Source of the DNA: Flavobacterium lipolyticum
GTDB taxonomy: Bacteria; Bacteroidota; Bacteroidia; Flavobacteriales; Flavobacteriaceae
Length of the DNA stretch: 64,000 nucleotides
Assembly: GCF_020905335.1 (NCBI RefSeq)
Contig: NZ_JAJJMN010000002.1
Span: forward strand, 310,001 to 374,000
Direction: 5' to 3'
Shown: positions 4,176 through 57,400 of the stretch, one piece after another
Numbering within the stretch: position 1 is the first letter of the stretch
How the letters are laid out: every line of letters begins with the position of its first letter
Program-made: the position numbers and the translations under genes
The notes under the pieces: generated by a model
Seen by the model: only the letters and a program-made list of their open reading frames with translations
Told to the model about the DNA's origin: nothing
Databases searched by the model: none

Positions 4176-4206
4176 TTTGTAAAAAAGGAGGTTAATATTT
4201 TACAAA
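4176..4206. promoter_or_regulatory. 9-bp inverted repeat upstream of the phosphonate-locus receptor
   Basis: TTTGTAAAA and TTTTACAAA form a perfect inverted repeat with a 13-bp spacer, about 290 bp before the TonB receptor start. It could be an operator (for example for the XRE-cupin regulator of this locus) or a chance AT-rich palindrome. The rest of 4207-4497 is AT-rich leader without a recognised gene. Confidence 0.3.
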
Positions 4207-4497
4207 TAGTAAAAAAATGACTTTACAAGGAAGTTGCGCTTAATCAAGACTTAACTTCGGCTCCCTGCAGTATTTTATCTGCCACTTTCCTTGAATTTCC
4301 TCACTTTAAAGATGTAAATCCGCCACTATTCTGCCAATATTTCAAGGATTATAAAACTATTTTTTTACAAATACTTAACAAATTACACCCCTTAATTTTC
4401 TTTTCTTTAACAATTAGATAATTTTTGATTATTTACTATTTATAAAATTAATTGTTTATTTGCTTGTATAAATTTAATATTTGTAAACAAATTAACC

Positions 4498-7374
4498 ATG
4501 AAAACAATTTACAAGGCAATTTTAATTTTTTCGGTTGCACTTTTTACTCCAAACATAATGGCTCAAAAGGCAAGCATCAGCGGAACAATTACCGACACAC
4601 AGTCTCCGCTTCCGGGTGCTACCATAATATTGTCTAATAATCTAAAAACTACAACAGATTTTAGCGGTTATTTTACCATTCAGGATGTCAGACCAGGCAG
4701 CTTCGAATTAGAAATTTCTTATATCGGATATGAAGTGAAACACATACAGATTGAAATTACTGACAATCAAAAACTGAATTTAGGTACAATTCAGCTGCAA
4801 ACCAACTCAAAAGAACTTAATGAAGTTGTGGTTAGTGGAATGACCCAAAGAAATAGTGAAGCAAGAGCATTGAACATGCAGAAAAAATCAATGAGTATTG
4901 TAAATGTAATTGCAGCCGATGGGATTGGAAAACTTCCGGATCGTAATGCTGCCGAAACCGTACAGCGTATGCCGGGAGTTTCGATAGAGCGCGATCAGGG
5001 TGAAGGACGTTTTGTATCGGTGAGAGGATTGCCGCCATTTTGGTCGTCAACTACAATTAACGGAAACAGAATTCCAACTGCCGAAGAAGAAACGACTTCG
5101 AGAGCTACCGCATTTGATTTTTTTCCTTCAGATCTTATCGCTTATGTTGAAGCTACTAAAGCGCTTACACCGGACATGGATGGTGATGCGATTGGCGGAA
5201 GCGTCAATTTTACTACACAAACCGCTCCAACGAAAAGAACAATTAAAGCAAGTGTTTTTAGCGGATACAATCAAAAATCGGATAAAGGAATTTATAGTGG
5301 ATCACTTACAATAGGGGATAAAAGTAAAAATGGAAAGTTTGGATACATTATCAATGGTACGTATTGGGACAGAAACTGGGCAACCGATAATTACGAGGCG
5401 AGAAGACAAGGTGATCAGGGCGTTTACAGATTGGAGTTGAGAGATTACACCGGAGTTAGAAAAACCACAGGTTTGAATGGTGCAATGGAGTTTAATCCTT
5501 CATCTAGAGATAAAATTTTTCTAAAAGTAACTTATGGCGGACTTACAGATGAAGAAACACATTACAAACACCGTATCCGATTTGATAAATTCAATGGTAC
5601 AACAAATGCATTAACGGTGGAACAACAAGATATTCACAACCAATTAATGACACAATTTTTAGGTCTTGATTTGGGAGGGAAACATCAGTTAGCGAACGGA
5701 AAATTAGATTGGAGTCTTGCTTCTTATCGAAACAGGTTTAAGTATGGCAACATCCCAAATGCAGAAGACAACAGTTATTTTTTAATTCAGTTCAATCAAA
5801 CGGGAGTAGGTGTTAAACCCGAATATTTAAAAACAGTGCCGCTTGCCAATGGTGGAGCAGGAGGTCCAAGAGCGTATTGGGCTGCTGATGGTGGAATTAT
5901 GGATCCAAGCAATCCAAAGTCAATATTTGATTTTTATTCCGATCCAAATTTCAAAACAGATCCGACAAAAATGAAGTTTTCTACTTTAGAATTATACAAA
6001 ATCAACATCGTAGAAAGAGACAACATTATTGCGGCAGTCAACTACGAGCACAATTTTAATGAGAATCTTAAAATGAAGTTTGGAGCGAAAGTAACAGATA
6101 AAGATCGTATTGCAACTTTTAGAGACGAGTATTACAACTGGACAGGTTCTCCAACCCCTTATTTATCCAACTATGCTTCTGATTTAATTCTTCAACCGGG
6201 AGGTACAGATTACTTAAGGAAAGAAACAGGCACTTTGATTGGAAATAGTTTCGGTCCGGTTTTATCAGCGGATGGAATGACAAAATTATTCAATACCTCC
6301 AAAGCAAATCTGGTTTTAAATCCTGCTGATTCGCAGATTCCGGAACTGGGTAAAGGATTAGGAAGAAACTTTAATGTAGGGGAGACAACCTCTTCTGTTT
6401 ATGCGATGTCAACCTATAATCTGTCGGATAAATGGACTGTTTTGGGAGGTCTGCGTGTAACCAATACTATCACACAGGTAACCGGTAAAACTGTAGAAAA
6501 CAATGTGGTGGTAGATGCTGAGAATACTAAAACGTATACCTCCGTACTTCCAATGTTGCACGTAAAGTACACTCCGATTGAGAATTTGAACCTTCGTTTT
6601 GCCACAACCAGGACATTTGCAAGACCTAATTTTGGAGATATTTCACCTGCAGGTTCGCTAAATACTATTGACGGAGAGTATGCAGGAGGAAATCCAAACT
6701 TGAACCCTACCTATTCCTGGAACTTTGATTTGTTGGGAGAGTATTTCCTTGACGAAGTAGGAATCATTAATGCCGGAGTATTCTACAAATCGATTACAGA
6801 TCCAATTTTTGACGATACTTATCAGGGTACCATAAACGGAATTCCTGATATAGAAATCAGTTCACCTGCTAACGGAGGTAATGCATGGATTGGTGGAGTT
6901 GAATTTGGAATTACCAAGAGATTCAGCTTCTTGCCGGGATTCCTGAAATATTTTGGGACTCAGATCAATGCAACTCTTATGGACTCTGAAATGACGTTAG
7001 GGAAAAATGCTAACAATCCTAACGGAAGAAAAGTGTCAACACCTTATCAGGCAAAAGAATTATACAATATACAACTGTTTTATGAGAGCGGCAAACTAAA
7101 TGTGAGAGCTGCCTTTAATCACAAGGGAGCTTATGCCACAAGTTTTGATGCCAATGCTAAAAATACAGACATGAATGATATTTATTACGGTAAATACAAC
7201 TCGCTTGATTTTTCTGCTTCCTATAAAATTGGAGATCATTTTACCATTTTCAGTGATGTAAACAATGTATTGAACGAGCCTTTGATGTACCATTTTGGAG
7301 AAACACCAAACCGTCCGAAACAGGTAGAATATTACGGAATGAAGTTTAACCTTGGTTTAAAATATAATTTATAG
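4498..7374 (+). CDS. TonB-dependent outer-membrane receptor (phosphonate locus)
   Basis: A 958-residue receptor. Residues 1-22 form a signal peptide ending in IMA-Q. A carboxypeptidase-regulatory-like beta sandwich (about 26-105; GTITDTQSPLPGATI) precedes the TonB plug (about 125-250; IGKLPDRNAAETVQRMPGV, SVRG). The C-terminal beta-barrel ends in FNLGLKYNL with an aromatic-rich tail. The plug resembles the Xanthomonas/Caulobacter-type TonB receptor clade. It is not SusC type and has no SusD partner. It is first in a plus-strand run with a transporter, FAD oxidoreductase, phosphonatase-like hydrolase and phosphodiesterase, so its cargo is probably an organophosphorus compound; that part is inferred from context. 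Confidence 0.92.
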   Translation: MKTIYKAILIFSVALFTPNIMAQKASISGTITDTQSPLPGATIILSNNLKTTTDFSGYFTIQDVRPGSFELEISYIGYEVKHIQIEITDNQKLNLGTIQLQTNSKELNEVVVSGMTQRNSEARALNMQKKSMSIVNVIAADGIGKLPDRNAAETVQRMPGVSIERDQGEGRFVSVRGLPPFWSSTTINGNRIPTAEEETTSRATAFDFFPSDLIAYVEATKALTPDMDGDAIGGSVNFTTQTAPTKRTIKASVFSGYNQKSDKGIYSGSLTIGDKSKNGKFGYIINGTYWDRNWATDNYEARRQGDQGVYRLELRDYTGVRKTTGLNGAMEFNPSSRDKIFLKVTYGGLTDEETHYKHRIRFDKFNGTTNALTVEQQDIHNQLMTQFLGLDLGGKHQLANGKLDWSLASYRNRFKYGNIPNAEDNSYFLIQFNQTGVGVKPEYLKTVPLANGGAGGPRAYWAADGGIMDPSNPKSIFDFYSDPNFKTDPTKMKFSTLELYKINIVERDNIIAAVNYEHNFNENLKMKFGAKVTDKDRIATFRDEYYNWTGSPTPYLSNYASDLILQPGGTDYLRKETGTLIGNSFGPVLSADGMTKLFNTSKANLVLNPADSQIPELGKGLGRNFNVGETTSSVYAMSTYNLSDKWTVLGGLRVTNTITQVTGKTVENNVVVDAENTKTYTSVLPMLHVKYTPIENLNLRFATTRTFARPNFGDISPAGSLNTIDGEYAGGNPNLNPTYSWNFDLLGEYFLDEVGIINAGVFYKSITDPIFDDTYQGTINGIPDIEISSPANGGNAWIGGVEFGITKRFSFLPGFLKYFGTQINATLMDSEMTLGKNANNPNGRKVSTPYQAKELYNIQLFYESGKLNVRAAFNHKGAYATSFDANAKNTDMNDIYYGKYNSLDFSASYKIGDHFTIFSDVNNVLNEPLMYHFGETPNRPKQVEYYGMKFNLGLKYNL

Positions 7375-7387
7375 ACAACTATAAGTT

Positions 7388-7457
7388 AACCCGTTGGATG
7401 TGCGCAGATTTTATTTTTACAGTTTATTTTTTTTTAATCTGCCGCAATCAACGGGTT
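7388..7457 (+). terminator. Long hairpin between receptor and transporter genes
   Basis: Outer arms AACCCGTTG/CAACGGGTT and inner arms GCAGATT/AATCTGC form a two-part stem about 70 nt long with a T-rich loop, 13 bp after the receptor stop. It could be a partial terminator or a processing/stability element that lets the receptor be expressed above the downstream genes. The T-run after the hairpin is short, so readthrough is likely. Confidence 0.6.
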
Positions 7458-7520
7458 TCTAAAACAACCGTACTTATTTCACATTGATCACAACCCCATC
7501 ACGTTAAATCTTAAGAACTA

Positions 7521-8804
7521 ATGTCTAAAAAAGCGTCTAATTTTAGGTTCATACTCAAAACGTCCATAGCGGCATTCGGCACTTATTTTTGTATGTATGC
7601 CTTCAGAAAACCTTTTACGGTCGCTACTTTCGATCAGTTGTCTTTTTGGGGAATAGATTATAAGATTCTGCTCATTCTAGCACAGGTTTTAGGTTATACT
7701 TTTTCTAAATTTTTAGGAATCAAAATCATATCCGAATTAAAGTCGGCCAGGAGAATTTTATACTTAATCAGTTTTATCGCCATTTCAGAATTGGCTTTGC
7801 TGGGTTTTGCTTTGGTACCGGCACCTTACAACATTCTATTTTTATTCATCAATGGATTGCCTTTAGGAATGATTTGGGGAATCGTTTTTTCTTATATCGA
7901 AGGCCGAAAAACAACTGAATTACTGGGGGTAATTTTATGCTCGAGTTTTATCGTTTCCTCTGGAGCGGCGAAATCTGTGGGAGTATTCGTTCTGAAGGTT
8001 TTGGGGTGCAATGAGTTTTGGATGCCTTTTGTTTCGGGATTACTTTTTATTGTTCCGCTAATCGTATTTTCATTGTTTTTGGAAAAAATCCCAAATCCGG
8101 ATGACGAAGATTTAGCCCTGCGATCCAAACGCAGACCTTTAGATAAAAAAGAACGTGCATTATTATTCCGACAATTTGCTTTTCCGTTGACCATACTTAT
8201 AATTTTCTATGCCATGTTAACGGCAATGCGTGAATTCAGAGATAATTTTGCAAGAGAATTATGGGATTCTTTGGGATATAAAGAGAGTATTTCGATCTAT
8301 ATGTACTCCGAAATTCCGATTGCGATAGCTGTTTTGGTCATTTTAGGATTTTTAGGAAGTATGAAAAACAACTACAAAGCCTTCAAAAATTATCATTTGG
8401 TGTTGCTCGTAGGTTCTGTACTTATAGGGATTACAACCTTATTGTTTCAAAAACATTTAATATCACCAGTTCCATGGATGATAATTTCCGGATTTGGAAT
8501 GTACGTTTGCTACATTCCGTTCAACGGTCTGTTTTTTGACCGTATGATTGCCACCTATAAAATTGATGGAAATACCGGATTTTTAATTTACATCGCCGAT
8601 GCTTTTGGTTACTTAGGAAGCGTACTGGTATTGTTTTTTAAAAATTTTGGCGACAAGAATATTTCCCTGTTAAGCTTTTTTACTACCTGTATTTATCTGC
8701 TCTCTTTTGTTGGGATCATCACTACCATCATGTCCTTTAACTATTTTAAAAGGAAGTTTAGAAAGACAGCTAAGATTCATACAGCTATGAGTTATGAGAT
8801 GTGA
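7521..8804 (+). CDS. DUF5690/OPA-like inner-membrane transporter
   Basis: A 427-residue polytopic protein with about 12 hydrophobic segments and basic cytoplasmic loops (RSKRRPLDKKER in the middle), the layout of a major facilitator. The first segment reads TYFCMYAFRKPFTVATF, which resembles the AYYLVRKPF-type signature of the organophosphate:phosphate antiporters (GlpT, UhpT). It also matches what I recall of DUF5690, a family without assigned function. Placed between a TonB receptor and phosphonate-type enzymes, it probably carries the phosphonate across the inner membrane. The last five codons (MSYEM) and the stop lie inside a period-7 repeat array, so the native C-terminus may have been overwritten. 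Confidence 0.8.
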   Translation: MSKKASNFRFILKTSIAAFGTYFCMYAFRKPFTVATFDQLSFWGIDYKILLILAQVLGYTFSKFLGIKIISELKSARRILYLISFIAISELALLGFALVPAPYNILFLFINGLPLGMIWGIVFSYIEGRKTTELLGVILCSSFIVSSGAAKSVGVFVLKVLGCNEFWMPFVSGLLFIVPLIVFSLFLEKIPNPDDEDLALRSKRRPLDKKERALLFRQFAFPLTILIIFYAMLTAMREFRDNFARELWDSLGYKESISIYMYSEIPIAIAVLVILGFLGSMKNNYKAFKNYHLVLLVGSVLIGITTLLFQKHLISPVPWMIISGFGMYVCYIPFNGLFFDRMIATYKIDGNTGFLIYIADAFGYLGSVLVLFFKNFGDKNISLLSFFTTCIYLLSFVGIITTIMSFNYFKRKFRKTAKIHTAMSYEM

Positions 8805-9024
8805 GTTATGAGATGTGAGATGTGAGATGCAAGATTTGAGATGTAAGATGTGAGATTTGAGATGTAAGATCTAAGATTTGAGATTTGAGATGCAAGATCT
8901 AAGATTTGAGATTTGAGATTTGAGACGCCGAGGGAAACTTGAAACCTGAAACTTGAAACCTGAAACCTGAAACCTGAAACTTGAAACTTGAAACCTGAAA
9001 CCTGAAACCTGAAACCTGAAACAA
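8785..9024. repeat. Period-7 array A (TGAGATN then TGAAACY units)
   Basis: About 17 degenerate heptamers of the type TGAGATG/TAAGATC/CAAGATT are followed by about 12 of TGAAACC/TGAAACT. The array begins inside the 3' end of the transporter gene and stops about 60 bp before the oxidoreductase. Because 7 x 3 = 21, all frames stay open through it, which creates spurious repetitive ORFs on the minus strand. Confidence 0.9.
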
Positions 9025-9083
9025 CAAACCATAAACCAAAAACAAATAAACAAATAACCAGTAAAACAAATAAAAACACAAAC

Positions 9084-10241
9084 ATGAAAGAGAAGTATGA
9101 TTTAATAATTATCGGGGCAGGAGTTCTGGGCACATTTCACGCCTACCATGCCCTGAAAAAAGGAATGTCGGTTGCCATTCTGGAAAAAAGCAGTAAACCG
9201 GAAGGTGCGACCGTTAGAAATTTTGGACAGGTTGTACCGTCTGGAATGGATCGAAAATGGCAGAATTTTGGAAAAGAAAGTTTAAAGATTTATAAAGATA
9301 TTCAATCGCAGTTTGAGATCAATCTCCGCCAGAACGGAACTGTTTATCTGGCTTCAAATGAAGAAGAAATGCAGTTGATTGAAGAACTTCATCAGATTAA
9401 TATTTCGAATGATTACGAATCTAATTTGCTGACCAAAGAGCAATGCCTGAATAAATACGACGGTTTACGTGCTGACTATTGTAAAGGAGGATTGTTTTTT
9501 CCGCAGGAAGTTACCGTTGAACCTTCCACAATGATTCACAAATTGCACCAGTTTATGACAGCCAATCTTGGACTTGATTTGTTTGTAAACACTACGGTCG
9601 TAGAAACCCAGGACCTAAACGATGAAGTAATAGCAAGAACTGCAGCAGGTGAGGTATACAAAGCTTCAAAAATTATTATTTGTAACGGAAGTGATTTCAA
9701 AATATTATATCCTGAGATTTACAACAACAGCGATCTCATTGTATCTAAATTGCAGATGCTGCAGACGAAACCTCAGAACAATTACAGATTGGACGGCTCT
9801 ATTTTAACGGGATTGACCATCAGAAGATATGAATCGTTCGAAGAATGTAAATCGTATCAGACCATCAAAGCAAAAGAAAATCCGGATAGTTTTGAGAAGA
9901 AGTATGGCGTTCATATCCTGTTCAAGCAAGCCCTTGACGGCTCCGTAATTTTAGGAGATTCTCATGAGTATGCTCCCGCAAAAGATATTGATTCTTTGGG
10001 ATTTGATCTGAATATGGACATCGATCATTTTATGATTGAAGAAGCCAAAAAGATAATTGATTTGCCTACTTATGAAATCCAGAACAGATGGTTTGGAATG
10101 TACTCGCAATGCAAGACCAAAGATATTTTCGAATACACCGTTGACCAGAATATTCACATCATAACCGGAATAGGAGGAAAGGGCATGACGGGAAGCGCAG
10201 GATTTGCCAAACACAATATTGATATGATTTTTAATGCTTAG
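9084..10241 (+). CDS. FAD-dependent amine oxidoreductase, TIGR03364-like
   Basis: A 385-residue DAO-superfamily flavoprotein. The Rossmann motif at the N-terminus reads LIIIGAGVLGTFHAYHALKKG and the FAD-closing C-terminal motif is GIGGKGMTGSAG. Length and pattern fit the TIGR03364 group. That group is known to co-occur with phosphonatase-like hydrolases (TIGR03351) and is proposed to deaminate aminophosphonates oxidatively, giving phosphonoacetaldehyde or a close relative. Exactly that hydrolase follows 211 bp downstream. A PhnW transaminase is absent, which supports the oxidase as the deaminating step. The substrate (2-aminoethylphosphonate, an N-methyl or 1-hydroxy form) cannot be decided from sequence. 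Confidence 0.82.
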   Translation: MKEKYDLIIIGAGVLGTFHAYHALKKGMSVAILEKSSKPEGATVRNFGQVVPSGMDRKWQNFGKESLKIYKDIQSQFEINLRQNGTVYLASNEEEMQLIEELHQINISNDYESNLLTKEQCLNKYDGLRADYCKGGLFFPQEVTVEPSTMIHKLHQFMTANLGLDLFVNTTVVETQDLNDEVIARTAAGEVYKASKIIICNGSDFKILYPEIYNNSDLIVSKLQMLQTKPQNNYRLDGSILTGLTIRRYESFEECKSYQTIKAKENPDSFEKKYGVHILFKQALDGSVILGDSHEYAPAKDIDSLGFDLNMDIDHFMIEEAKKIIDLPTYEIQNRWFGMYSQCKTKDIFEYTVDQNIHIITGIGGKGMTGSAGFAKHNIDMIFNA

Positions 10242-10245
10242 GGAT

Positions 10246-10313
10246 TGTGAGATGTGGGTTATGAGTTATGAGGTATGAGTTATGAGTTTCAGAGATAACC
10301 TGAAACCTGAAAC
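10246..10313. repeat. Period-7 array B
   Basis: Heptamers such as TGAGATG, TGGGTTA, TGAGTTA and TGAGGTA run straight on from the oxidoreductase stop, followed by two TGAAACC units. A short relic of AACCATT-type units lies at 10383-10404. Unit sequences overlap with those of arrays A and C. Confidence 0.8.
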
Positions 10314-10452
10314 AAATTTAATTATAAATCATAGTATATAATCTATAATTAAAGTCTTTTTTAGAGAAATAACACAAACGATCAACCATTAACCATCAAC
10401 TATAAACAAAAAAAAAAAACAGCCTGTTTGGCTATTAAAATAAATACACAAA

Positions 10453-11133
10453 ATGAAAATTAATGAAATTGAAATGGTTGTTTTTGATATGGCCGGAACA
10501 ACAATAAATGAGCAAAATATAGTTTACAAAACATTGCATAAATCCATCAACAACTTCGGGATCGGGGTTTCTTTGGAATCGGTATTGTCATTAGGAGCGG
10601 GAAAAGAAAAACATCAGGCGATCAGGGATATTTTAGAATACAATAAGATCACAGACGAGAATAAATCAGATGTAATATTCGAATATTTTAAAGAAACACT
10701 GGACAAAGAATATCTTTCAGCTTCCGTTTTACCTATAGAAGGCATTGAAAATATTTTTGAAAATTTAAAAAAGGACGGTGTAAAAGTGGTACTAAACACA
10801 GGCTACAGCAGTCACGTTGCGAATACCTTATTAGAAAAGCTGAACTGGAAGGAAGGAAACCAATACGATGCCTTAATCACCGCTGATGATGTAGTGTTGG
10901 GACGTCCATTTCCGGATATGATATACAAAGCCATGCAATTGTTTGCGATTACAGACGCTTCAAAAGTTCTAAAAGCAGGAGATTCTGCGATAGATATTGA
11001 AGAAGGTAAAAATGCCAAATGTGGCGTAACTATTGGTGTTTTATCCGGCGCACAAACCAGACAGCAGCTTGAAGCAGCCCAGCCCGATTACATATTAAAT
11101 TCGTTGGCATCGCTTTATAGTGTTATGGGGTGA
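10453..11133 (+). CDS. Phosphonatase-like HAD hydrolase (TIGR03351-like)
   Basis: A 226-residue HAD hydrolase with the hallmarks of the PhnX group. Motif I is DMAGTT with nucleophile D12 and alanine at +2 (DxAGT). A cap-domain lysine K51 in GAGKEKH aligns with the Schiff-base lysine of phosphonoacetaldehyde hydrolase. An arginine (GRPFPDM) replaces the usual HAD lysine, and the metal-binding motif is GDSAIDIEEG. These features imply cleavage of the C-P bond of phosphonoacetaldehyde or a close 2-oxoethylphosphonate, giving phosphate and an aldehyde. The gene follows the FAD oxidase rather than PhnW, the usual context of TIGR03351 and not of true PhnX. Class is firm, exact substrate open. Confidence 0.87.
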   Translation: MKINEIEMVVFDMAGTTINEQNIVYKTLHKSINNFGIGVSLESVLSLGAGKEKHQAIRDILEYNKITDENKSDVIFEYFKETLDKEYLSASVLPIEGIENIFENLKKDGVKVVLNTGYSSHVANTLLEKLNWKEGNQYDALITADDVVLGRPFPDMIYKAMQLFAITDASKVLKAGDSAIDIEEGKNAKCGVTIGVLSGAQTRQQLEAAQPDYILNSLASLYSVMG

Positions 11134-11153
11134 GCGGTTAGATGTGAATAATG

Positions 11154-11422
11154 TTAGAAGTAAGAAGTGAGAAGTAACAATTAACAATTAACAATTGACA
11201 ATTAACAATTAACAATTAACAATTATCAATTATCCATTATCCATTATCCATTATCCATTAACCATTAACCATTATCCATTAACCATTAACCATTATCAAT
11301 TAACAATTAACAATTAACAATTAACCATTATCCATTATCCATTATCAATTATCAATTAACAATTAACAATTAACAATTAACAATTAACCATTATCCATTA
11401 TCAATTAACAATTATCAATTAG
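11154..11422. repeat. Period-7 array C (TTAACAA/TTAACCA/TTATCCA units)
   Basis: About 38 degenerate heptamers start as TTAGAAG/TAAGAAG/TGAGAAG and continue as TAACAAT, TAACCAT and TATCCAT. It fills most of the gap between the hydrolase and phosphodiesterase genes. Runs of identical variants (several ATCCATT in a row, then AACAATT) suggest local duplication by slippage. Confidence 0.92.
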
Positions 11423-11493
11423 TAAAAACAATATCCCTGCAGGAAAAGTTTCAAACAAGTAAATAAATAGTAACCATAAAACAATTCAACCCA

Positions 11494-13176
11494 ATGAAAA
11501 AGATTTTTAGATTAAGTTACATTACAATTCTTGCAAGTGCGCTTTTAGTCACTTCCTGTACCAACGATTCAGCGCTTGCGAAAGACGAACAGGCAGTAAA
11601 TGCTAAAGCAAACTCTAAAACCGGCAAATCTGCTTTAAGCAGTGGAACCAGAAAATTACTGATTATAGGAATCGACGGCTGTCGCGGCGATGCTCTAATG
11701 GGAGCCAACACTCCTAATATTCATGCTTTATTACCCAATGCGGTTTACAGTGTAGATGCATTGACCGAAGCACCTACGTGGAGCGGAAACGGCTGGTCGA
11801 CGATGCTTACCGGCGTGACCCATTTGAAACATGGCGTAACCGATAATTCATTTTCGAGTCCGAATTTTACCTCGTATCCTAGTTTTTTGAAAAGACTTGA
11901 AACGTATAATTCTGCTTTAAAAACCATGTCGATTGTGCATTGGGCACCCATCAATACCTATATTGTGAATGGCATTGATGTAGAGAAAACACTCACTACC
12001 GATTTGGCTGTTAAAAATGAAGTGGTTGCCGCACTTACAAACGACAATCCGGATGCCTTGTTTTTGCATTTTGATGATGTCGATCATGCAGGACACAGCT
12101 ATGGATTTTCGCTTAATGTATCGCAGTACAAATCTTCAATTGAAACCACAGACGGTTACATAGGTGAAATCTTAACGGCTTTAAAGAACAGACCTAACTA
12201 TGCCAATGAGGATTGGTTGGTCGTGGTAGCGCCGGATCACGGAGGGATTGTTACAGGTTCCAGTGGATCTCATGGCGGAAGTTCTTACGAAGAACGAAAC
12301 ATCTTTACTATTTTCAACAATAAAAACTTTACGTCGACTAAAATCGAAAAACCGGTCGATCCCACTACAACGATAACGGGTAAGTTTGTCAATTTTAATT
12401 CCAATTCTATTTATGCTTCAACATCTAATGCACTTTACAATTTCGGAACTTCGAGTTTTACAGTGGAGTGTCGGGTAAAAACATCAGGATATAGCAGTGA
12501 TCCTTCGCTGGTTTCGAATAAGAACTGGGTGAGCGGTAAAAACCGAGGTTTTGTCATCTGCGCCAATACCGGAGGAACATGGAAGGTAAATATTGGGGAC
12601 ACTCAAAGTCGTGTGGATATTTCCGGTGGGACAATCAATGATGGGAAATGGCATCATTTGACACTTGTGGTGGACCGCACAGCCAAATTGGTTAAAACGT
12701 ATCAGGACGGTGCTTTTGTGGGGCAGGCTGCTATTGGAGCCAGTTTCGGAAGTCTGACTTCTGGACTGCCTTTTGCGATAGGACAGGACGGAACGCTAAC
12801 GTATGGTGCCAATGTAAACGGAAATATTGCTGAGGTGCGTGTATGGAACAAAGCCTTATCGGAAGCTTCGATTTTAAATTATACCTGTTCTTCGGTTACC
12901 GCTTCACATCCGGATTACTCCAATCTTATTGGATACTGGAAAGGAGATAACGGATCAGGAAACAGTTTTACCGATTCAAGCGTTCAGCAGGTAAACCTTG
13001 CTTTTCCAAATACTCCAACATGGATAAACACTACAGCCTCTTTAAAATGTGGTACCGCAACAGGAGCAGTTCCTAAAATGGTAGATATCGCCTATTCTTC
13101 GTTACAATGGTTTGGTGTACCCATCAATACAAGCTGGTCATTAGACGGCCGTTCATGGCTTCCGACAGCGAATTAA
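11494..13176 (+). CDS. Lipoprotein phosphodiesterase/alkaline-phosphatase-fold enzyme with LamG domain
   Basis: A 560-residue surface or periplasmic lipoprotein: LVTSC is a lipobox with C22. Residues about 50-280 form a nucleotide-pyrophosphatase/phosphodiesterase fold. Metal and nucleophile motifs are IGIDGCRGD, PTWSGNGWSTMLTG, DDVDHAGH and APDHGG. Residues about 300-480 are a LamG/concanavalin-like domain (FTVECRVKTS, DGKWHHLTLVVDRT, GNIAEVRVWNKAL). The superfamily includes phosphonoacetate hydrolase and phosphonate/phosphate ester hydrolases. Last in the phosphonate run, it may free phosphonate or phosphate head groups from glycoconjugates or lipids before uptake. Substrate is inferred; the fold is clear. 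Confidence 0.85.
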   Translation: MKKIFRLSYITILASALLVTSCTNDSALAKDEQAVNAKANSKTGKSALSSGTRKLLIIGIDGCRGDALMGANTPNIHALLPNAVYSVDALTEAPTWSGNGWSTMLTGVTHLKHGVTDNSFSSPNFTSYPSFLKRLETYNSALKTMSIVHWAPINTYIVNGIDVEKTLTTDLAVKNEVVAALTNDNPDALFLHFDDVDHAGHSYGFSLNVSQYKSSIETTDGYIGEILTALKNRPNYANEDWLVVVAPDHGGIVTGSSGSHGGSSYEERNIFTIFNNKNFTSTKIEKPVDPTTTITGKFVNFNSNSIYASTSNALYNFGTSSFTVECRVKTSGYSSDPSLVSNKNWVSGKNRGFVICANTGGTWKVNIGDTQSRVDISGGTINDGKWHHLTLVVDRTAKLVKTYQDGAFVGQAAIGASFGSLTSGLPFAIGQDGTLTYGANVNGNIAEVRVWNKALSEASILNYTCSSVTASHPDYSNLIGYWKGDNGSGNSFTDSSVQQVNLAFPNTPTWINTTASLKCGTATGAVPKMVDIAYSSLQWFGVPINTSWSLDGRSWLPTAN

Positions 13177-13925
13177 AAATTTGTGTTTTTTGTTTTTTAA
13201 AGGGTTATCTTCTTTTTTGAAGGTAGCCTTTTTGGTTTGATTCTGGCTTGGAGTTTAACCGCAAAGAACGCTAAGATGTTGCGCAAAGTTCGCAAAGATT
13301 TTTTTTTCTCATTTTGTGTCATTTCGATCGAAGAGAGAAATCGCATTAGAAACTCGACACAGAATGTCGCCAATCTTTTTCGAATCCCACGTGTGATTTG
13401 CTTCGTTAAAAATTTGTGTTTTATTGTTTTTTAAAGGGTTATCTTCTTTTTTGAAGGTAGCCTTTTTGATTTAATTTTGGTCTTGAGTTTAACCGCAAAG
13501 AGTGCAAAGATGTTACGCAAGGTTCGCAAAGGTTTTTTTTCTCATTTTGTGTCATTTCGATCGAAGAGAGAAATCACATTAGAAACTCGACACAGAATGT
13601 CGCCAATCTTTTTCGAATCCCACGTGTGATTTGCTTCGTTAAAAATTTGTGTTTTATTGTTTTTTAAAGGGTTATCTTCATTTTTGAAGGTAGCCTTTTT
13701 GATTTAATTTAGGTCTTGAGTTTAACCGCAAAGAGCGCAAAGATGTTACGCAAGGTTCGCGAAGTTTTTTTAATGTAAAGGGATGAGTTTAACCGCAAAG
13801 AGCGCAAAGATACTGCGCAAAGTTCGCAAAGTTTTTTTTCTCATTTTGTGTCATTTCGATCGAAGAGAGAAATCACATTAGAAACTCGATACAGAATGTC
13901 GCCAATCTTTTTCGTATCCTACGTG
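13175..13925. repeat. 233-bp tandem repeat, about three copies plus a partial one
   Basis: Equivalent points lie at 13178, 13411 and 13644, an exact 233-bp period. Each unit contains a terminator hairpin, a segment of CGCAAAG words (TTTAACCGCAAAGAGCGCAAAG), and a stretch ending in GAATCCCACGTGTG. A fourth, truncated copy lacking the hairpin starts near 13790. Copies 2 and 3 are almost identical. No real gene is seen in 13177-14088; ORFs here are by-products of the repeat. Confidence 0.9.
13199..13233 (+). terminator. Terminator of the phosphonate locus (first of three copies)
   Basis: AAAGGGTTATCTTC and GAAGGTAGCCTTTTT pair, with G-U wobbles, around a T6 loop and end in T5. Near-identical copies recur with the 233-bp tandem repeat at about 13432-13466 and 13665-13699. 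Confidence 0.75.
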
Positions 13926-14088
13926 TAATTTACTTCGTCTATTCACTGTCCTTCGAGTCCCCTTCGGTCGATATTGACAAGCTTAGTAGCTATTTAATCG
14001 TAAAGTTCTATCTATAGAGCTTTGCGAACCTTACCTTTTTTAAAGTCTTAGCTCTAAAAAAACTTAGCGTTCTTTGCGGTAAAAAAAA

Positions 14089-14673
14089 CTAACTATTACT
14101 CTCAGAATAAAAGTAAAGTACCAGCATCACACAGTTTTCTGTTGTTCGGTTTTGAGGCACGTGTGGATGTCTTCCGTTGAAGCACAATGAATCACCTTCA
14201 TTGACAACCACTTCTGCATCATCAATAATATAAGTCACACTTCCTTTTATGATGTATTTGAACTCCCAGGCATCTGTAATTACTTTTTCGCGTTTACAGT
14301 TGGGTTCCACGTCAAGAATTACAGCTTCAAAACCAATAGAGTTAATGCTTTTACTGAAAATATGATAGTAGTTAAAACCGGTGGTTTCGGCACGGTCCTC
14401 TTTTTCTATCTTTTGATAATCGTCTTTTTTAATATGAATGTACTTCGCATTCTTGGTATTTTCAACACCTTCAAAAAAATAACTCACATCCGTATTTAAG
14501 GATTGTATCAATTCAATCAAAACAGGTAGGGAAGGAATTGTTCTTCCGTTTTCAATTCTGGAAATCAAACCGTTGCTAACTCCGGCTCTGTTGGCTACTT
14601 CGTGTATGGTTAATGCATTTTTCTTCCTGATCTCTTTTAATCTCTTTCCAATACCAATTAAAAAATCTTCCAT
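14089..14673 (-). CDS. XRE-family regulator with C-terminal cupin domain
   Basis: A 194-residue two-domain regulator. An HTH_3 domain occupies about residues 8-65 (LKEIRKKNALTIHEVANRAGVSNGLISRIENG split here as LTIHEVANRAGVSNGLISR). A small beta-barrel cupin lies at about 105-190 (NEGDSLCFNGRHPHVPQN). This fold commonly senses a small metabolite. The gene converges on the phosphonate locus across the 233-bp tandem repeats. It is the only specific regulator nearby, so it is the best candidate to control the receptor-to-phosphodiesterase genes. That role is inferred from position only. Confidence 0.85.
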   Translation of the reverse strand: MEDFLIGIGKRLKEIRKKNALTIHEVANRAGVSNGLISRIENGRTIPSLPVLIELIQSLNTDVSYFFEGVENTKNAKYIHIKKDDYQKIEKEDRAETTGFNYYHIFSKSINSIGFEAVILDVEPNCKREKVITDAWEFKYIIKGSVTYIIDDAEVVVNEGDSLCFNGRHPHVPQNRTTENCVMLVLYFYSESNS

Positions 14674-42951: not shown

Positions 42952-43071
42952 AACGCTTTAGGTCTGTTTTTAATATATGGGAACATAATTCAAAATAAGT
43001 GGGTATTTATTTCCTCTCGCAGATTGCTTCGCCTGTTCCCTATCGCTCGGGTTAGCAGATTCAGCAGATTT

Positions 43072-43283
43072 TTACTCTTCACTCTTTACTCTTTACTCTT
43101 TACTCTTTACTCTTTGCTCTTTACTCTTTACTCTTTACTCTTTACTCTTTACTCTTTACTCTTTACTCTTTACTCTTTACTCTTTACTCTTTACTCTTTG
43201 CTCTTTACTCTTTACTCTTTGCTCTTTACTCTTTGCTCTTCACTCTTCACTCTTCACTCTTCACTCTTCACTCTTTACTCTTT
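43072..43283. repeat. Period-7 array E (ACTCTTT units) between regulator and kinase
   Basis: About 30 nearly perfect heptamers ACTCTTT, with variants GCTCTTT and ACTCTTC, end exactly at the response-regulator stop codon (TGA, 43284-43286). On the transcribed strand the unit is AAAGAGT. The array is the most regular of the set in this window and lies inside what should be a two-component operon. The plus-strand ORF across it (SLLFTLY repeats) is an artefact of the period. Confidence 0.95.
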
Positions 43284-51402: not shown

Positions 51403-54400
51403 TTATTTTACAAGTACTTTGAATGACTTTTTGATATTGCCTGATTCAATAACTACAAGAACCATATTACTCTCAGTACTTGGAGGTAATTGCACCTGTG
51501 TTTGAGCAGTAGACGACTTCATTGTTGTAAGTAGTTTACCTGTAACAGAGTAAAGACTTATTTGCATGTTTTCTAAATCACCTTCTGGTAAATCAGCGTC
51601 TACAGTAAGCATTTTTCCTGTTTCAACCGGATTTGGATACAATTTAACCTCAAGTGATTTCTGTGTCTTAATTTTAGAAGGACATGTTTGCAGCACTTTA
51701 CCATCTTTAGTAGTCATTTTTACACTATAATCGGCTGTTAAATCCAATGTATTAGATTGAGCCTCACCTGCTGAAAAGTATTGATTTGTTCCAATTACTT
51801 GTCCGTTTTTAAACCATTGGTACGAAACAAACTCGTAACCTCCATTCGTTTGAGGGTTGTTGTTTACGATAAGTACATTATTGAATTTTTGGTGTACAAT
51901 ATCATAGAATCCAAATGGTTTTTCTACAGTTATAGCATAAGTAGCATTAGCACTTCCGTCTTCAGAAGTAATTGTTACGTTTTGCGTATAAATTCCAGGT
52001 TTAGGTGTATTGATCGTAAAATTAGCTGCAGGCGTAAAGGTTGCATTGGTTGTATTGGTCAATGCTACATTTACGTTGTTCTCGCCACATGCCATCAGGT
52101 AATTAATAGTTTTAGCCGGATTTGGATAAACTTTAGTACCAACAGTAATTTGAGTAACAGTGATGTCATTGTTTTTGATCACCAAAAGCTGTGAAACATC
52201 CGCAGCAGGTAAATAATTCGCATCACCAGCCTGAGCAGCAATAATTGTTACTTCTCCAGGTCTTAACATAGTTACTAGACCAGTTAATGGAGCAACAGTA
52301 GCAGCAGGTAAAGCTGTTTTGTAGGTGAAAGAATAGTTCACCGCTAAACCTGAACTGGCAGTAGCCCCCAGTGAGAACGTATTTATAGTTCCAAGAGTTT
52401 TTACTCCTAAAGCTGCGAAAGTAATTTGTTGCGCTGCTTTTTGAATAGTAAGCTGTGCAGTAAGCGTAATTGGAGAACAATTAGGCTCGCTTGCAGCAGG
52501 AGTTACTAGCGCAGTTACCGTATATGTACCCGCATTTGTAGCTGAATTTCCTGTAGATCCAGGTGCTATTGTATAAGCAACAGTAGCTCCTGCAGGTAAA
52601 TTAGCAACTTGTATTGCTTGTGGGTTTTTGTTGTAGGTTACTGTAGCATTGCTAAAAGTTACTGCTTGAATAGACGAAGGAAGAACTTTAACGGTCTGAT
52701 TTTGTGTGCTTGTGTTTCCACTGGCATCAGTATACGTCCAGGTAATTGTATAGGTTCCCGGTGTATTATAAGTTAAAGGATTCGTTGTGGTTGCAGTAAT
52801 ATTTCCACTACAATTATCCGTTGCAGTTGGAACTGGAATCTGAGCCGATAAAACAGCACAAGCACTTGTAATTACTGGAAGAGTAGCCACATTTGGTACT
52901 GGTGGTGTTACATCAGGAGTAGTGGTTAAAGTTACTGATAGTGGTGCAGTACAACCATTAGCATCTGTAACTGTTAGGGTATAGGTTCCTGTCGTTAATC
53001 CGCTGATGTCTTTAGTTGTTGCTGCATTTGACCATAAGTAAGTGTATGGAGTTGTACCGCCAGTTATAGTAGTGGTAATCGCTCCATTGCTTGCTCCATT
53101 GCAGGAAATGTTTGTTTGAGTTGCAATGGTGGCAGTTAATAGAGCCGGTTGGTTGATCACAATATTGGTAGTTTTGGTACATCCATTTCCATCAGTAACC
53201 AGTACGGAGTAATTTCCTGAAGGTAAGCCACTTGCAGTTGCTGAATTTCCTCCGGTTGGAGACCAAACGTAAGTATAACCACCTGTTCCACCTGTTACAT
53301 TAACAGTAGCCGAACCATTGCTTCCTCCGTTACAGCTAACATTTGTTCCTGTAATTGTAGTTGCGATTGCAGCTGGTTCTAAGATGTTGTAAACTTGAGT
53401 TTTAGTACAACCACTACCATCAGTGATCGTTAAAGTGTAAGTTCCTGCAGTAAGTCCGGTTGCAGTTGCAGCCGTACCTCCCGATGGAGACCATGAATAG
53501 GTATAACTACCACTTCCGCCACTTACGGTAGCCGAAGCTTGTCCGTTTTGCCCTCCATTACAGGTTACATCAGTTTGTGCTGGGGTAACTGTAATAGCAG
53601 TTGGTTGATATACAATAATATTACTAACTGTTTTGGTACATAAGTTGGCATCTGTTATGACCACATTATAGTTTCCGGCAACAAGATCAGTTATAGTTTG
53701 TGTTGTTGCTCCATTTGACCATAAGTAAGTATAGCCCGAAGTACCTCCGGTTGGAGTAACCGTTGCAGTACCGTCAGCTTGCCCAAAACACGAAACTACT
53801 GTTGTAGTTGCAGTTCCGTTAAGAACAGCTGGTTGACTAATAACAATACCAGTTATCGTTTTAGGACATGCGTTAGCATCTGTAATGGTCACGCTATAAG
53901 TTCCTGCAGCAAGCCCGCTTGCTGTAGCCGCTGTACCACCTGTTGGAGACCAGGAATAAGTATAATTTCCGGCACCCCCGGATGGAGTAACTGTAGCCGA
54001 ACCATTGGCATTACCGAAACAAGTAGCAGCTGTTGTAACTACAGTCCCGTTCACGGCGTCAGCTGGTTGACTAATAACAATACCCGTTATCGTTTTAGGA
54101 CATGCGTTAGCATCTGTAATAGTAACACTATAAGTTCCGGCGGCAAGTCCTGTAGCGGTTGCTGCGGTACCTCCGGTTGGAGACCATGAATAAGTATATC
54201 CTGCAGTTCCTCCGCTAGGAGTTACTGTTGCAGTACCGTTAGCTCCTCCAAAACAAGAAGCGGCTGTTGTAGTTACAGTTCCATCAAGAGCTGCGGCTGG
54301 CTGACCTATAATAATATTGTTTATCGTTTTAGGACAGTTGTTCGCATCTGTAATGGTAACATTATAAGTCCCTGCGATAAGTCCGTTTATGGTTTGAGTT

Positions 54401-57400
54401 GTAGCTCCGTTAGACCATGCATAAGTATATCCTGCAGTTCCTCCGCTAGGAGTTACTGTTGCACTACCGTTAGCTCCTCCGAAACAAGAAACGGCTGTTG
54501 TAGATATAGTTCCATCAAGAGCAGCTGCTGGCTGTCCTACCACAATACCCGTTATCGTTTTAGGACATGCGTTAGCGTCTGTAATAGTAACGCTATAAGT
54601 TCCGGCGGTAAGTCCTGTTGCTGTTGCAGCCGTACCTCCCGATGGAGCCCATGAATAAGTATATCCTGGTGTACCACCTGAAGGGGTAACTGTTGCTGTA
54701 CCGTTATTACCTCCAAAACAGGAAACGGCTGTTGTAGTAGCAGTTCCGTCAACAGCTGTAGGCTGGCCAATAACAATACCTGTTATCGTTTTAGGACATG
54801 CGTTAGCATCTGTAATGGTAACACTATAAGTTCCGGCAGTAAGCCCGGTTGCCGTTGCGGCTGTACCTCCGGTTGGAGACCATGAATAGGTATATCCCGG
54901 TGTACCTCCTGATGGGGTTACTGTTGCTGTACCGTTAGCACTTCCAAAACAAGAAGCTGCTGTTGTAGCTACAGTGCCATCAAGAGCGGTAGCTGGTTGT
55001 CCTACCACAATACCCGTTATCGTTTTAGGACATGCGTTAGCATCTGTAATAGTAACACTATAAGTTCCGGCGGCAAGTCCTGTTGCGGTTGCTGCTGTAC
55101 CTCCTGATGGAGACCACGAATAAGTGTAAGCTGGAGTACCTCCGGTTGCAGTTACTGTTGCAGTACCATTAGATCCTCCAAAACAAGAAGCGGCTGTTGT
55201 AGTTACAGTTCCATCGAGAGCTGCGGCTGGCTGACCTATAATAATATTGTTTATCGTTTTTGGACATAAGTTAGCATCTGTAATAGTAACGCTATAAGTT
55301 CCAGCTATCAAACCTGTTATAGTTTGCGTTGTGGCTCCTGTAGACCATGCATAAGTATATCCTGCAGTTCCTCCGCTAGGAGTTACTGTTGCAGTACCGT
55401 TAGCTCCTCCGAAACAAGAAACGGCTGTTGTGGATATAGTTCCATTGAGAGCTGCTGCTGGCTGCCCTACCACAATACCCGTTATCGTTTTAGGACATGC
55501 GTTAGCGTCTGTAATAGTAACGCTATAAGTTCCGGCGGTAAGTCCTGTTGCTATTGCAGCCGTACCTCCTGATGGAGCCCATGAATAAGTATATCCTGGT
55601 GTACCACCTGAAGGGGTAACCGTCGCCGTACCGTTATTCGCTCCAAAACAGGAAACTGCTGTTGTAGTAGCCGTTCCGTCAAGAGCTGTAGGCTGGCCAA
55701 TAACAATACCCGTTATCGTTTTAGGACATGCGTTAGCATCTGTAATGGTAACACTATAAGTTCCGGCAGCAAGTCCCGTAGCCGTTGCGGCTGTACCTCC
55801 GGTTGGTGACCAGGAGTAAGTATATGCCGGAGTACCTCCGGTTGCCGTTACTGTTGCTGTACCGTTAGTACTTCCAAAACAAGATGCGGCTGTTGTAGTC
55901 ACAGTGCCATCAAGAGCGGCAGCTGGTTGTCCTACCACAATACCCGTTATCGTTTTAGGACATGCGTTAGCATCTGTAATAGTAACACTATAAGTTCCGG
56001 CGGCAAGTCCTGTTGCGGTTGCTGCTGTACCTCCTGATGGAGCCCATGAATAGGTGTATCCAGGTGTACCTCCTGATGGTGTAACTGTTGCTGTACCGTT
56101 ACTACCTCCAAAACAAGAAGCGGCTGTGGTAGTAACAGTTCCGTCAAGTGCGGCAGCAGGCTGACCTATAACAATATTGTTTATTGTTTTAGGACAATTG
56201 TTAGCATCTGTGATGATCACACTATAAGTTCCGGCTACACGGCCTGTTATAGTTTGCGTTGTAGCTCCGGTAGACCATAAGTAGGTATATCCAGGTGTAC
56301 CTCCAGTTGGAGTTATTGTTGCTGTACCGTTACTGCCTCCAAAACAGGAAACAGCCGTTGTCGTAGGCAGTCCATTTAGTGCTGTTGGTTGTGTTATCGA
56401 GAAGTTTCTGGTAATTTGTGTCAATTCAGCATCGGTAATTGTAACGGTGTATGCATTTGCAGACAGTCCGGTTGCCGATGATCCGGTACCTCCTGCAGGA
56501 GACCATGAGTAGGTATAGGGAGTAACTCCGCCAATTACGGTAACACTGGCAGCACCAGTAGTTCCTCCGTTACAAGCCACATCTGTTTTTGAGGTGGAAG
56601 AAGTGGCTAAAGCAGCCGATGTTACGAAAGTTGACTCGGCACCATAAGCTGTACCGGCAGTATTCTTTGCATAAGCTCTGTAATGAATAGTCGAACCAGG
56701 AGTTAATCCGGTTACAGTATTACTAAAAATTCCAGTTCCAGTTCCGATTTGAAATTTATTGTTTGCGATCGTCGGGCTTGCTGTTGTTGCCCAAACGATT
56801 CCTCTTTCTACATTGGCATCTCCGCCATCTGCAGTTACATTTCCTCCAATAATTGCTTTCGTTGAACCCACATTTGTTGCGGTTGTAGTAGTTACTGTTG
56901 GTAAACTTACCCCATCAACCCAGGTAAAATTATCAATTGCAAAATAATCGTAATTGGCGCTTAGCTGAATTTCAAGCTGGTCAATGTTGATATTGGTAAA
57001 ATTTGAAACTCCGTCTGTCGCGAAGTTGACAGGGATAAAACCTTTATTAGGTAAGGCAACACCAATGTTTGCGCCAGTAGTGCTTTTTACAATAGAGAAT
57101 TGTGTTACACCTCCAAGTTTTCCGGTTAAGGTAACCGAACCAGGTGCGCCATCAAAGGTACTATTAGGAGTCTGACCAGAAGTACCGGTAAGGTAAATCC
57201 ATAAACTATTCATCTTAAAGCTTCCGGAGGCAGCTGTAATGTATCCGGTTTGTCCTAAACTTTCGGCTAATCCGCCATCCGTAACCTGTATAAATCGGTT
57301 TGAACCGTTATAGCCTAAACCTGCAAATTGAACAGTAGTAAAGCTAATGTAAGTGTTAGTCAGATTAAAGGTCTTACCATTGCTGGTAAAGTTAGGCTGG

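Follow-up and report, generated by a model that had tools for sequence, protein, structure and literature searches.

A predicted aminophosphonate utilisation locus in Flavobacterium lipolyticum, with DUF5690 as a candidate phosphonate carrier

Aminophosphonates form a sizeable pool of phosphorus and nitrogen, and a locus of Flavobacterium lipolyticum raises the question of how a bacterium without a detected PhnD-type importer could still reach them. The stretch analysed, here called the window, comprises 64,000 nucleotides (bases 310001-374000 of contig C2, in a genome of 5.77 Mb). Its positions 4498-13176 hold five plus-strand genes, encoding an outer-membrane TonB-dependent receptor (TBDT), a DUF5690 inner-membrane carrier, an oxidase dependent on flavin adenine dinucleotide (FAD), a HAD hydrolase and a lipoprotein phosphodiesterase (PDE), in the order given by an earlier note on this DNA; an opposed XRE-cupin regulator gene is added to them here. 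Searches of the genome that holds the window gave no PhnW at E<=1e-50 and neither PhnJ nor the PhnD-type family PF12974 at 0.001 (they did not cover AepX-type binding proteins, PF13343), in agreement with the absence of PhnW, phnCDE and C-P lyase asserted earlier. Judged from sequence, this is very probably an inducible locus for aminophosphonate utilisation, with a route from release through import to cleavage of the carbon-phosphorus (C-P) bond; the note's overall reading, uptake and breakdown of aminophosphonates, is supported and its observation confirmed.

In the proposed route, the exported PDE would free phosphonate from an ester-bound polymer or lipid, the TBDT would then move it over the outer membrane and DUF5690 over the inner membrane. 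By homology to PbfD, the TIGR03364 oxidase would convert 2-aminoethylphosphonate (AEP, or 2AEP) or its N-methyl form to phosphonoacetaldehyde and, as conserved catalytic positions suggest, the TIGR03351 HAD would break the C-P bond by way of a Schiff base formed at K51, yielding acetaldehyde and phosphate. The XRE-cupin protein would control the locus through palindromes of the form GTTTAC-N5-GTAAAC. We infer the substrate, the role of the PDE and the direction of transport.

Conservation of the neighbourhood was followed in 247 genomes of the class and 199 of the genus. Among the class genomes, the oxidase occurs in 21, DUF5690 in 37, the HAD in 33 at 1e-20 (five over its cut-off) and PhnW, over its cut-off, in 18. 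DUF5690 is present in all 21 oxidase genomes, and the oxidase or PhnW in 33 of the 37 DUF5690 genomes against two of the 210 others (table 33/2/4/208; p 3e-34, by genus p 5e-19, values that overstate independence since the genomes are related). Within the genus, oxidase and DUF5690 occupy the identical 18 of 199 genomes, the HAD occurs in 17 of those and in G353, and all 17 other loci have DUF5690 no more than 8 kb from the oxidase. The joint conservation of neighbours in relatives, which the earlier note had left to be checked, is thus borne out. The best 80 of 580 DUF5690 loci, hence close to the window, were also named, 78 of them with a called DUF5690 gene; L180 and L203 have none and stand outside the 78, L203 having been removed by a rule on overlap of open reading frames (ORFs) and read by hand, and L114 gave no cluster match. 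Within 8 kb, these 78 loci show the FAD oxidase in 62, the HAD in 63, a PDE in 52, an outer-membrane receptor in 60 and a relative of the regulator in 63. Median gaps are -4 bp between DUF5690 and FAD genes (69 loci) and 2 bp between FAD and HAD genes (68 loci), counted from the first possible start codon.

At the cell surface, the PDE bears a lipobox (LVTSC) at its N terminus and matches PF01663 at 71.8 bits (cut-off 23). It might instead serve to scavenge phosphorus in general and be a neighbour of the pathway that does not feed it, although we hold this to be clearly the less probable role. The resemblance of its modelled catalytic domain extends equally to alkaline phosphatases, NPP enzymes, ENPP7 and sulfatases, and takes in monoesterases, diesterases and a phosphonate monoester hydrolase (nothing is drawn from the part past about residue 290, where the model is poor, with block means mostly 25 to 66); the PDE type differs among loci (PDELG, PDEa, PDEb), and in 19 of 37 oxidase genomes no PDE lies within 10 kb of the oxidase. 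The 18 genomes that do have one compare, however, with 0.57 expected (the count covers 37 of the 38 oxidase genomes, G413 being left out with a contig that ends inside the oxidase gene). Moreover, the nucleophile S97 and the six metal ligands D61, D197, H201, D248, H249 and H260 are kept in 54 or 55 of 56 sequences, and in G057 a relative of the receptor is flanked by two PDE pieces, far from the oxidase.

Relatives of the TBDT itself, at 1e-100, occur in 13 of the 247 class genomes, 12 of which are DUF5690 genomes (p 3e-10), and for eight of the 13 the distance to the oxidase, DUF5690, the HAD or PhnW is at most 10 kb. The receptor of a Stenotrophomonas locus with the order HAD-DUF5690-FAD is 47% identical to the window TBDT over 862 aa. 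From where its relatives occur, the TBDT would carry phosphonate across the outer membrane; in many loci SusC-SusD replaces this receptor type.

The oxidase covers positions 1-365 of the 365 in the TIGR03364 profile and scores well over its cut-off (Table 1), as the earlier assignment held. Glycine or sarcosine oxidase was rejected as its identity, with ThiO at 74.3 of 250.8 bits and soxA at 41.8 of 479.65 bits. In a tree of 46 of 109 rows, thinned at 70% identity and with one very distant outgroup, the window oxidase falls in a well supported clade (99/96) of 23 Bacteroidota rows. Two Acinetobacter rows, taken as PbfD1-type on the assumption that they match published PbfD1, fall outside this clade, and membership of the window oxidase in a PbfD1 sub-clade was not found. 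PbfC and PbfD enzymes convert N-methyl-AEP to phosphonoacetaldehyde in vitro, one PbfD also takes AEP well, and PbfD1 of A. baumannii carries the TIGR03364 annotation (PMC10590968; this and the other papers compared here were available in part, and statements about them concern those parts).

The HAD likewise passes its family cut-off (Table 1). Its nucleophile motif is D12-M-A-G-T, and its cap motif, G48-x-x-K51-x-x-H54, is spaced like the G-x-x-K-x-x-H of solved PhnX; D12, K51, H54, two late Asp residues and the Arg of a 'GRP' loop all pair with that structure. In PhnX, the aligned lysine, K53, forms the Schiff base. The description of this enzyme as TIGR03351-type, with DxAGT, cap K51 and Arg, stands, as does the alignment of K51 on which it depended. 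A motif scan finds the cap lysine in 112 of 116 HAD relatives and in 90 of 90 of those from oxidase loci.

It is unlikely, on balance, that the same layout serves another aminophosphonate, such as 1-hydroxy-2-aminoethylphosphonate, the HAD cutting a hydroxylated aldehyde rather than phosphonoacetaldehyde. Such a substrate would suit an enzyme that belongs to TIGR03351 and falls below the cut-off of the PhnX equivalog TIGR01422 (114.8 of 220 bits), in a family where the histidine at K+3 varies widely (present in only 36 of the 112 relatives by motif scan). It would also suit the TIGR03276-like HD oxygenases (representative 214.1 of 214.6 bits) found in seven of the 78 named and five of the 21 class loci, none being in the window, and the TIGR03364 description quoted in the available part of PMC10590968, which suggests that substrate. 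On the other side, N-methyl-AEP and AEP are what the PbfD enzymes tested in that paper oxidise (PMC10590968), annotated PhnX accompanies this oxidase family in Novosphingobium, Asticcacaulis, Comamonas and Acinetobacter, and the window HAD retains every PhnX position checked, H54 included. The more probable substrate is AEP or its N-methyl form.

What would link the surface to these enzymes is DUF5690, a large family (7794 of 8000 scored candidates match at E<=1e-10) in which the nearest name-bearing proteins come from Flavobacterium, at 94%. Genes for three ways of breaking the C-P bond, by oxidase-HAD, PhnW-PhnX or C-P lyase, are found beside it in Bacteroidota and Pseudomonadota. It adjoins phnX-phnW in Parabacteroides and Bacteroides, and TIGR03364 with annotated PhnX in Novosphingobium. 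In two further genera its surroundings include C-P lyase genes, detected as PhnJ, PhnI, PhnN and PhnM for Dyella and as PhnJ, PhnI, PhnN and PhnF for Rhodanobacter. The core cluster shows no second inner-membrane importer that recurs. This context in two phyla argues strongly that DUF5690 imports aminophosphonate across the inner membrane, with weaker support from structure, the predicted model being that of a major facilitator superfamily (MFS) carrier. By sequence, its identity with AepP or GlpT is unsupported: phmmer gave no match to GlpT in the PDB at E 1, a profile search no carrier at E 10, and hhalign E 0.055 with a probability of about 1%. In the weak GlpT alignment, Y22, Y26, R29 and K30 stand opposite GlpT Y38, Y42, R45 and K46, the last two being the Arg-Lys pair of the phosphate site in TM1, and Y59-S62-K63 opposite Y76-S79-K80; R29, K30, Y59 and K63 are invariant among 52 DUF5690 sequences. 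The kind of carrier proposed earlier, one like the organophosphate:phosphate antiporters (OPA), is plausibly right.

OPA carriers swap organophosphate for inorganic phosphate, and DUF5690 might move another organophosphate, or export internally made phosphate, merely accompanying phosphonate genes. A PHP/HisJ-like gene adjoins it in 15 of the 17 loci having one, and in six of these no phosphonate enzyme is found next to it. This role is nevertheless very improbable, given that DUF5690 stands beside three different chemistries of C-P cleavage, across two phyla, and that no other importer recurs in the core cluster. A chance neighbourhood was rejected on the class and genus co-occurrence.

As separate observations on this gene, DUF5690 adjoins a PHP/HisJ-like gene in L084, L085 and L087-L090 (f5 g7 genomes) and in L086 and L091-L094; the first six have no phosphonate enzyme next to DUF5690, although PhnW lies elsewhere in those genomes. 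In one genome, the DUF5690 frame of L060 (G057, C1:1051999-1053155) contains an in-frame TAG and was matched as two pieces.

Several observations weigh against an aminophosphonate route as proposed, beyond the relatedness of the genomes, the position of the HAD below the PhnX equivalog cut-off and its variable histidine. Both the oxidase and PhnW are missing from four DUF5690 genomes of the class. In the 21 class loci, DUF5690 lies no more than 8 kb from the oxidase in 13, the HAD in 11 and any PDE in 10, some contigs being short. Twelve of the 78 named loci have no phosphonate enzyme detected by hidden Markov models within 8 kb; two of the 12 are accounted for by C-P lyase and one by a TIGR03366-like dehydrogenase, and nine are unexplained (the high-G+C loci L205 and L207, with poor ORF calling, were counted as lacking such enzymes though both show C-P lyase genes). 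A plain MAFFT column count put the cap lysine in just 57 of 116 HADs, a figure that the motif-scan count suggests is due to misalignment of the cap. The separation of the oxidase clade from the Acinetobacter rows leaves, as far as sequence goes, the choice of substrate not fixed. The Stenotrophomonas oxidase nests within mostly Bacteroidota rows, and its locus may for that reason be one transferred set. Lastly, the first structural match of the DUF5690 model, SLC37A4, is tied with another carrier.

Control of the locus would lie with its regulator and operators. The XRE-cupin protein reaches only 52.2 of 211 bits with the PuuR model. A scan of upstream regions yielded the inverted repeat GTTTAC-N5-GTAAAC, which, with up to two mismatches, is found ahead of 104 of 497 locus genes but, within one and the same set of 88 loci, ahead of just 10 of 706 others (Fisher 9e-32). 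Locus promoters bear this repeat in 76 of the 88 loci that have the regulator and in 7 of the 64 that lack it (Fisher 7e-22); its half-site ranks first of 120 letter permutations (95 promoters against 22 for the next), and all these statistics overstate independence, with related loci, 75 distinct of 135 sites and regulator presence confounded with taxonomy. Four predicted operators lie 5' of the TBDT gene, at 4198-4214, 4363-4379, 4431-4447 and 4472-4488, with 0, 2, 1 and 1 mismatches to the core TTTACN5GTAAA; compared with the full consensus, two of them differ at three positions. Of the nine window sites with no more than one mismatch, three lie within this 300 bp (rough P 1e-5, for a stretch chosen post hoc), and no excess is seen window-wide, with 87 two-mismatch core matches against 75 expected. 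The operator signal is one of local clustering and enrichment across loci, not of window-wide abundance. This statistical association suggests that the XRE-cupin regulator acts through the palindromes.

Table 1. Features of the locus, in window positions
Feature	Position	Strand or place	Matches
Predicted operator cluster (four sites)	4198-4488	upstream of TBDT	consensus GTTTAC-N5-GTAAAC
TonB-dependent receptor (TBDT)	4498-7374	+	TIGR01782, 490 bits
DUF5690 MFS carrier, proposed aminophosphonate transporter	7521-8804	+	PF18943, 560 bits
FAD-dependent amine oxidase, PbfD-like	9084-10241	+	TIGR03364, 420.9 bits (cut-off 285.1)
Phosphonatase-like HAD hydrolase, cap lysine K51	10453-11133	+	TIGR03351, 239.2 bits (cut-off 218.9)
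Exported lipoprotein phosphodiesterase (PDE), alkaline phosphatase superfamily	11494-13176	+	PF01663 + Laminin_G_3 (LamG) + DUF4983
XRE-cupin transcriptional regulator, proposed palindrome binder	14089-14673	-	HTH_3 + Cupin_2

Repeats are a further trait of the window. Period-7 tandem arrays fill intergenic spacers at 8795-8925, 8934-9022, 10258-10288, 11175-11421 and 43071-43283, each with its own heptamer (TGAGATG, GAAACCT, GTTATGA, TAACAAT and TTTACTC); a regulatory role for these microsatellites was set aside, short versions in these spacers occurring only in L077 among eight close relatives. A repeat of ~233 bp stands in tandem copies at 13173-13990, 3' of the PDE gene, with no ORF of >=120 aa there, and a ~234-bp repeat array at 53717-56361 lies within a minus-strand ORF of 2030 aa.

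Three things look new here: the link between DUF5690 and phosphonate transport, the clade of receptors, and the pairing of regulator with operator. Somewhat more boldly, and with a little better than even confidence, it is proposed that DUF5690 is a new phosphonate carrier family, not joined to AepP or GlpT by sequence, with an MFS fold and an OPA-like motif in its first transmembrane helix, serving all three types of C-P cleavage operon in Bacteroidota and Pseudomonadota, possibly by exchange of aminophosphonate for released phosphate. Together with its own receptor clade, surface PDEs and an XRE-cupin regulator on GTTTAC-N5-GTAAAC, it would form the phosphonate counterpart of polysaccharide utilisation loci. 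A large family of uncharacterised proteins thereby gains a testable function, and regulator and operator offer a means of finding such loci. Bacteroidota barely figure in the phosphonate literature examined: the word stem has no occurrence in PMC10590968 and PMC10574752 and one each in PMC12366243 and PMC8316502. In the open-licence literature, partly listed, no further paper on such a Bacteroidota phosphonate locus was recognised, and DUF5690 was not found by name.

The catabolic enzymes represent a variant of a route already described, in which a PbfD oxidase forms phosphonoacetaldehyde and PhnX cleaves it, and an OPA-type 2AEP permease is known as well. Among the closest known systems is the PbfD2-PhnX route of Mariniblastus fucicola, where, in the part of the source available, an FAD oxidase of the PbfD group is likewise combined with a phosphonatase and PhnW is not needed; the window HAD, however, is TIGR03351 and not PhnX, the transport and regulator genes differ, and the window oxidase and the Acinetobacter rows belong to separate sub-clades, in a comparison that did not contain PbfD2's own sequence (PMC10590968). 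The hpnW-phnX operons of Achromobacter similarly hold a TIGR03364 oxidase in a phosphonatase operon, with phnW replaced, but they have a phnSTU ABC transporter and a LysR regulator where the window has DUF5690, TBDT and XRE-cupin (PMC11203657, same limit).

AepP of Pseudomonas putida BIRD-1, an OPA-family, GlpT-like 2AEP permease required with 2AEP as sole nitrogen source, resembles DUF5690 in being an inner-membrane MFS carrier encoded with AEP catabolism, and one Bacteroidetes strain is named as having a homologue (PMC8316502, in part). AepP aligns with GlpT at 9e-37 (PMC8316502), whereas DUF5690 finds no GlpT chain in the PDB by phmmer (E 1) or profile search (E 10). In Flavobacterium, loci of the phosphate utilisation systems (PusCD) are reported near phosphonate enzymes, in an account whose available part gives these one sentence, without mention of a carrier, oxidase, HAD, regulator or operator (PMC8115612). 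The GlpT-GlpQ pair of E. coli is comparable in function, an OPA carrier and a diesterase encoded side by side. GlpQ has another fold than the window PDE, and the substrate there is C-O-P, whereas that of the window locus would be C-P.

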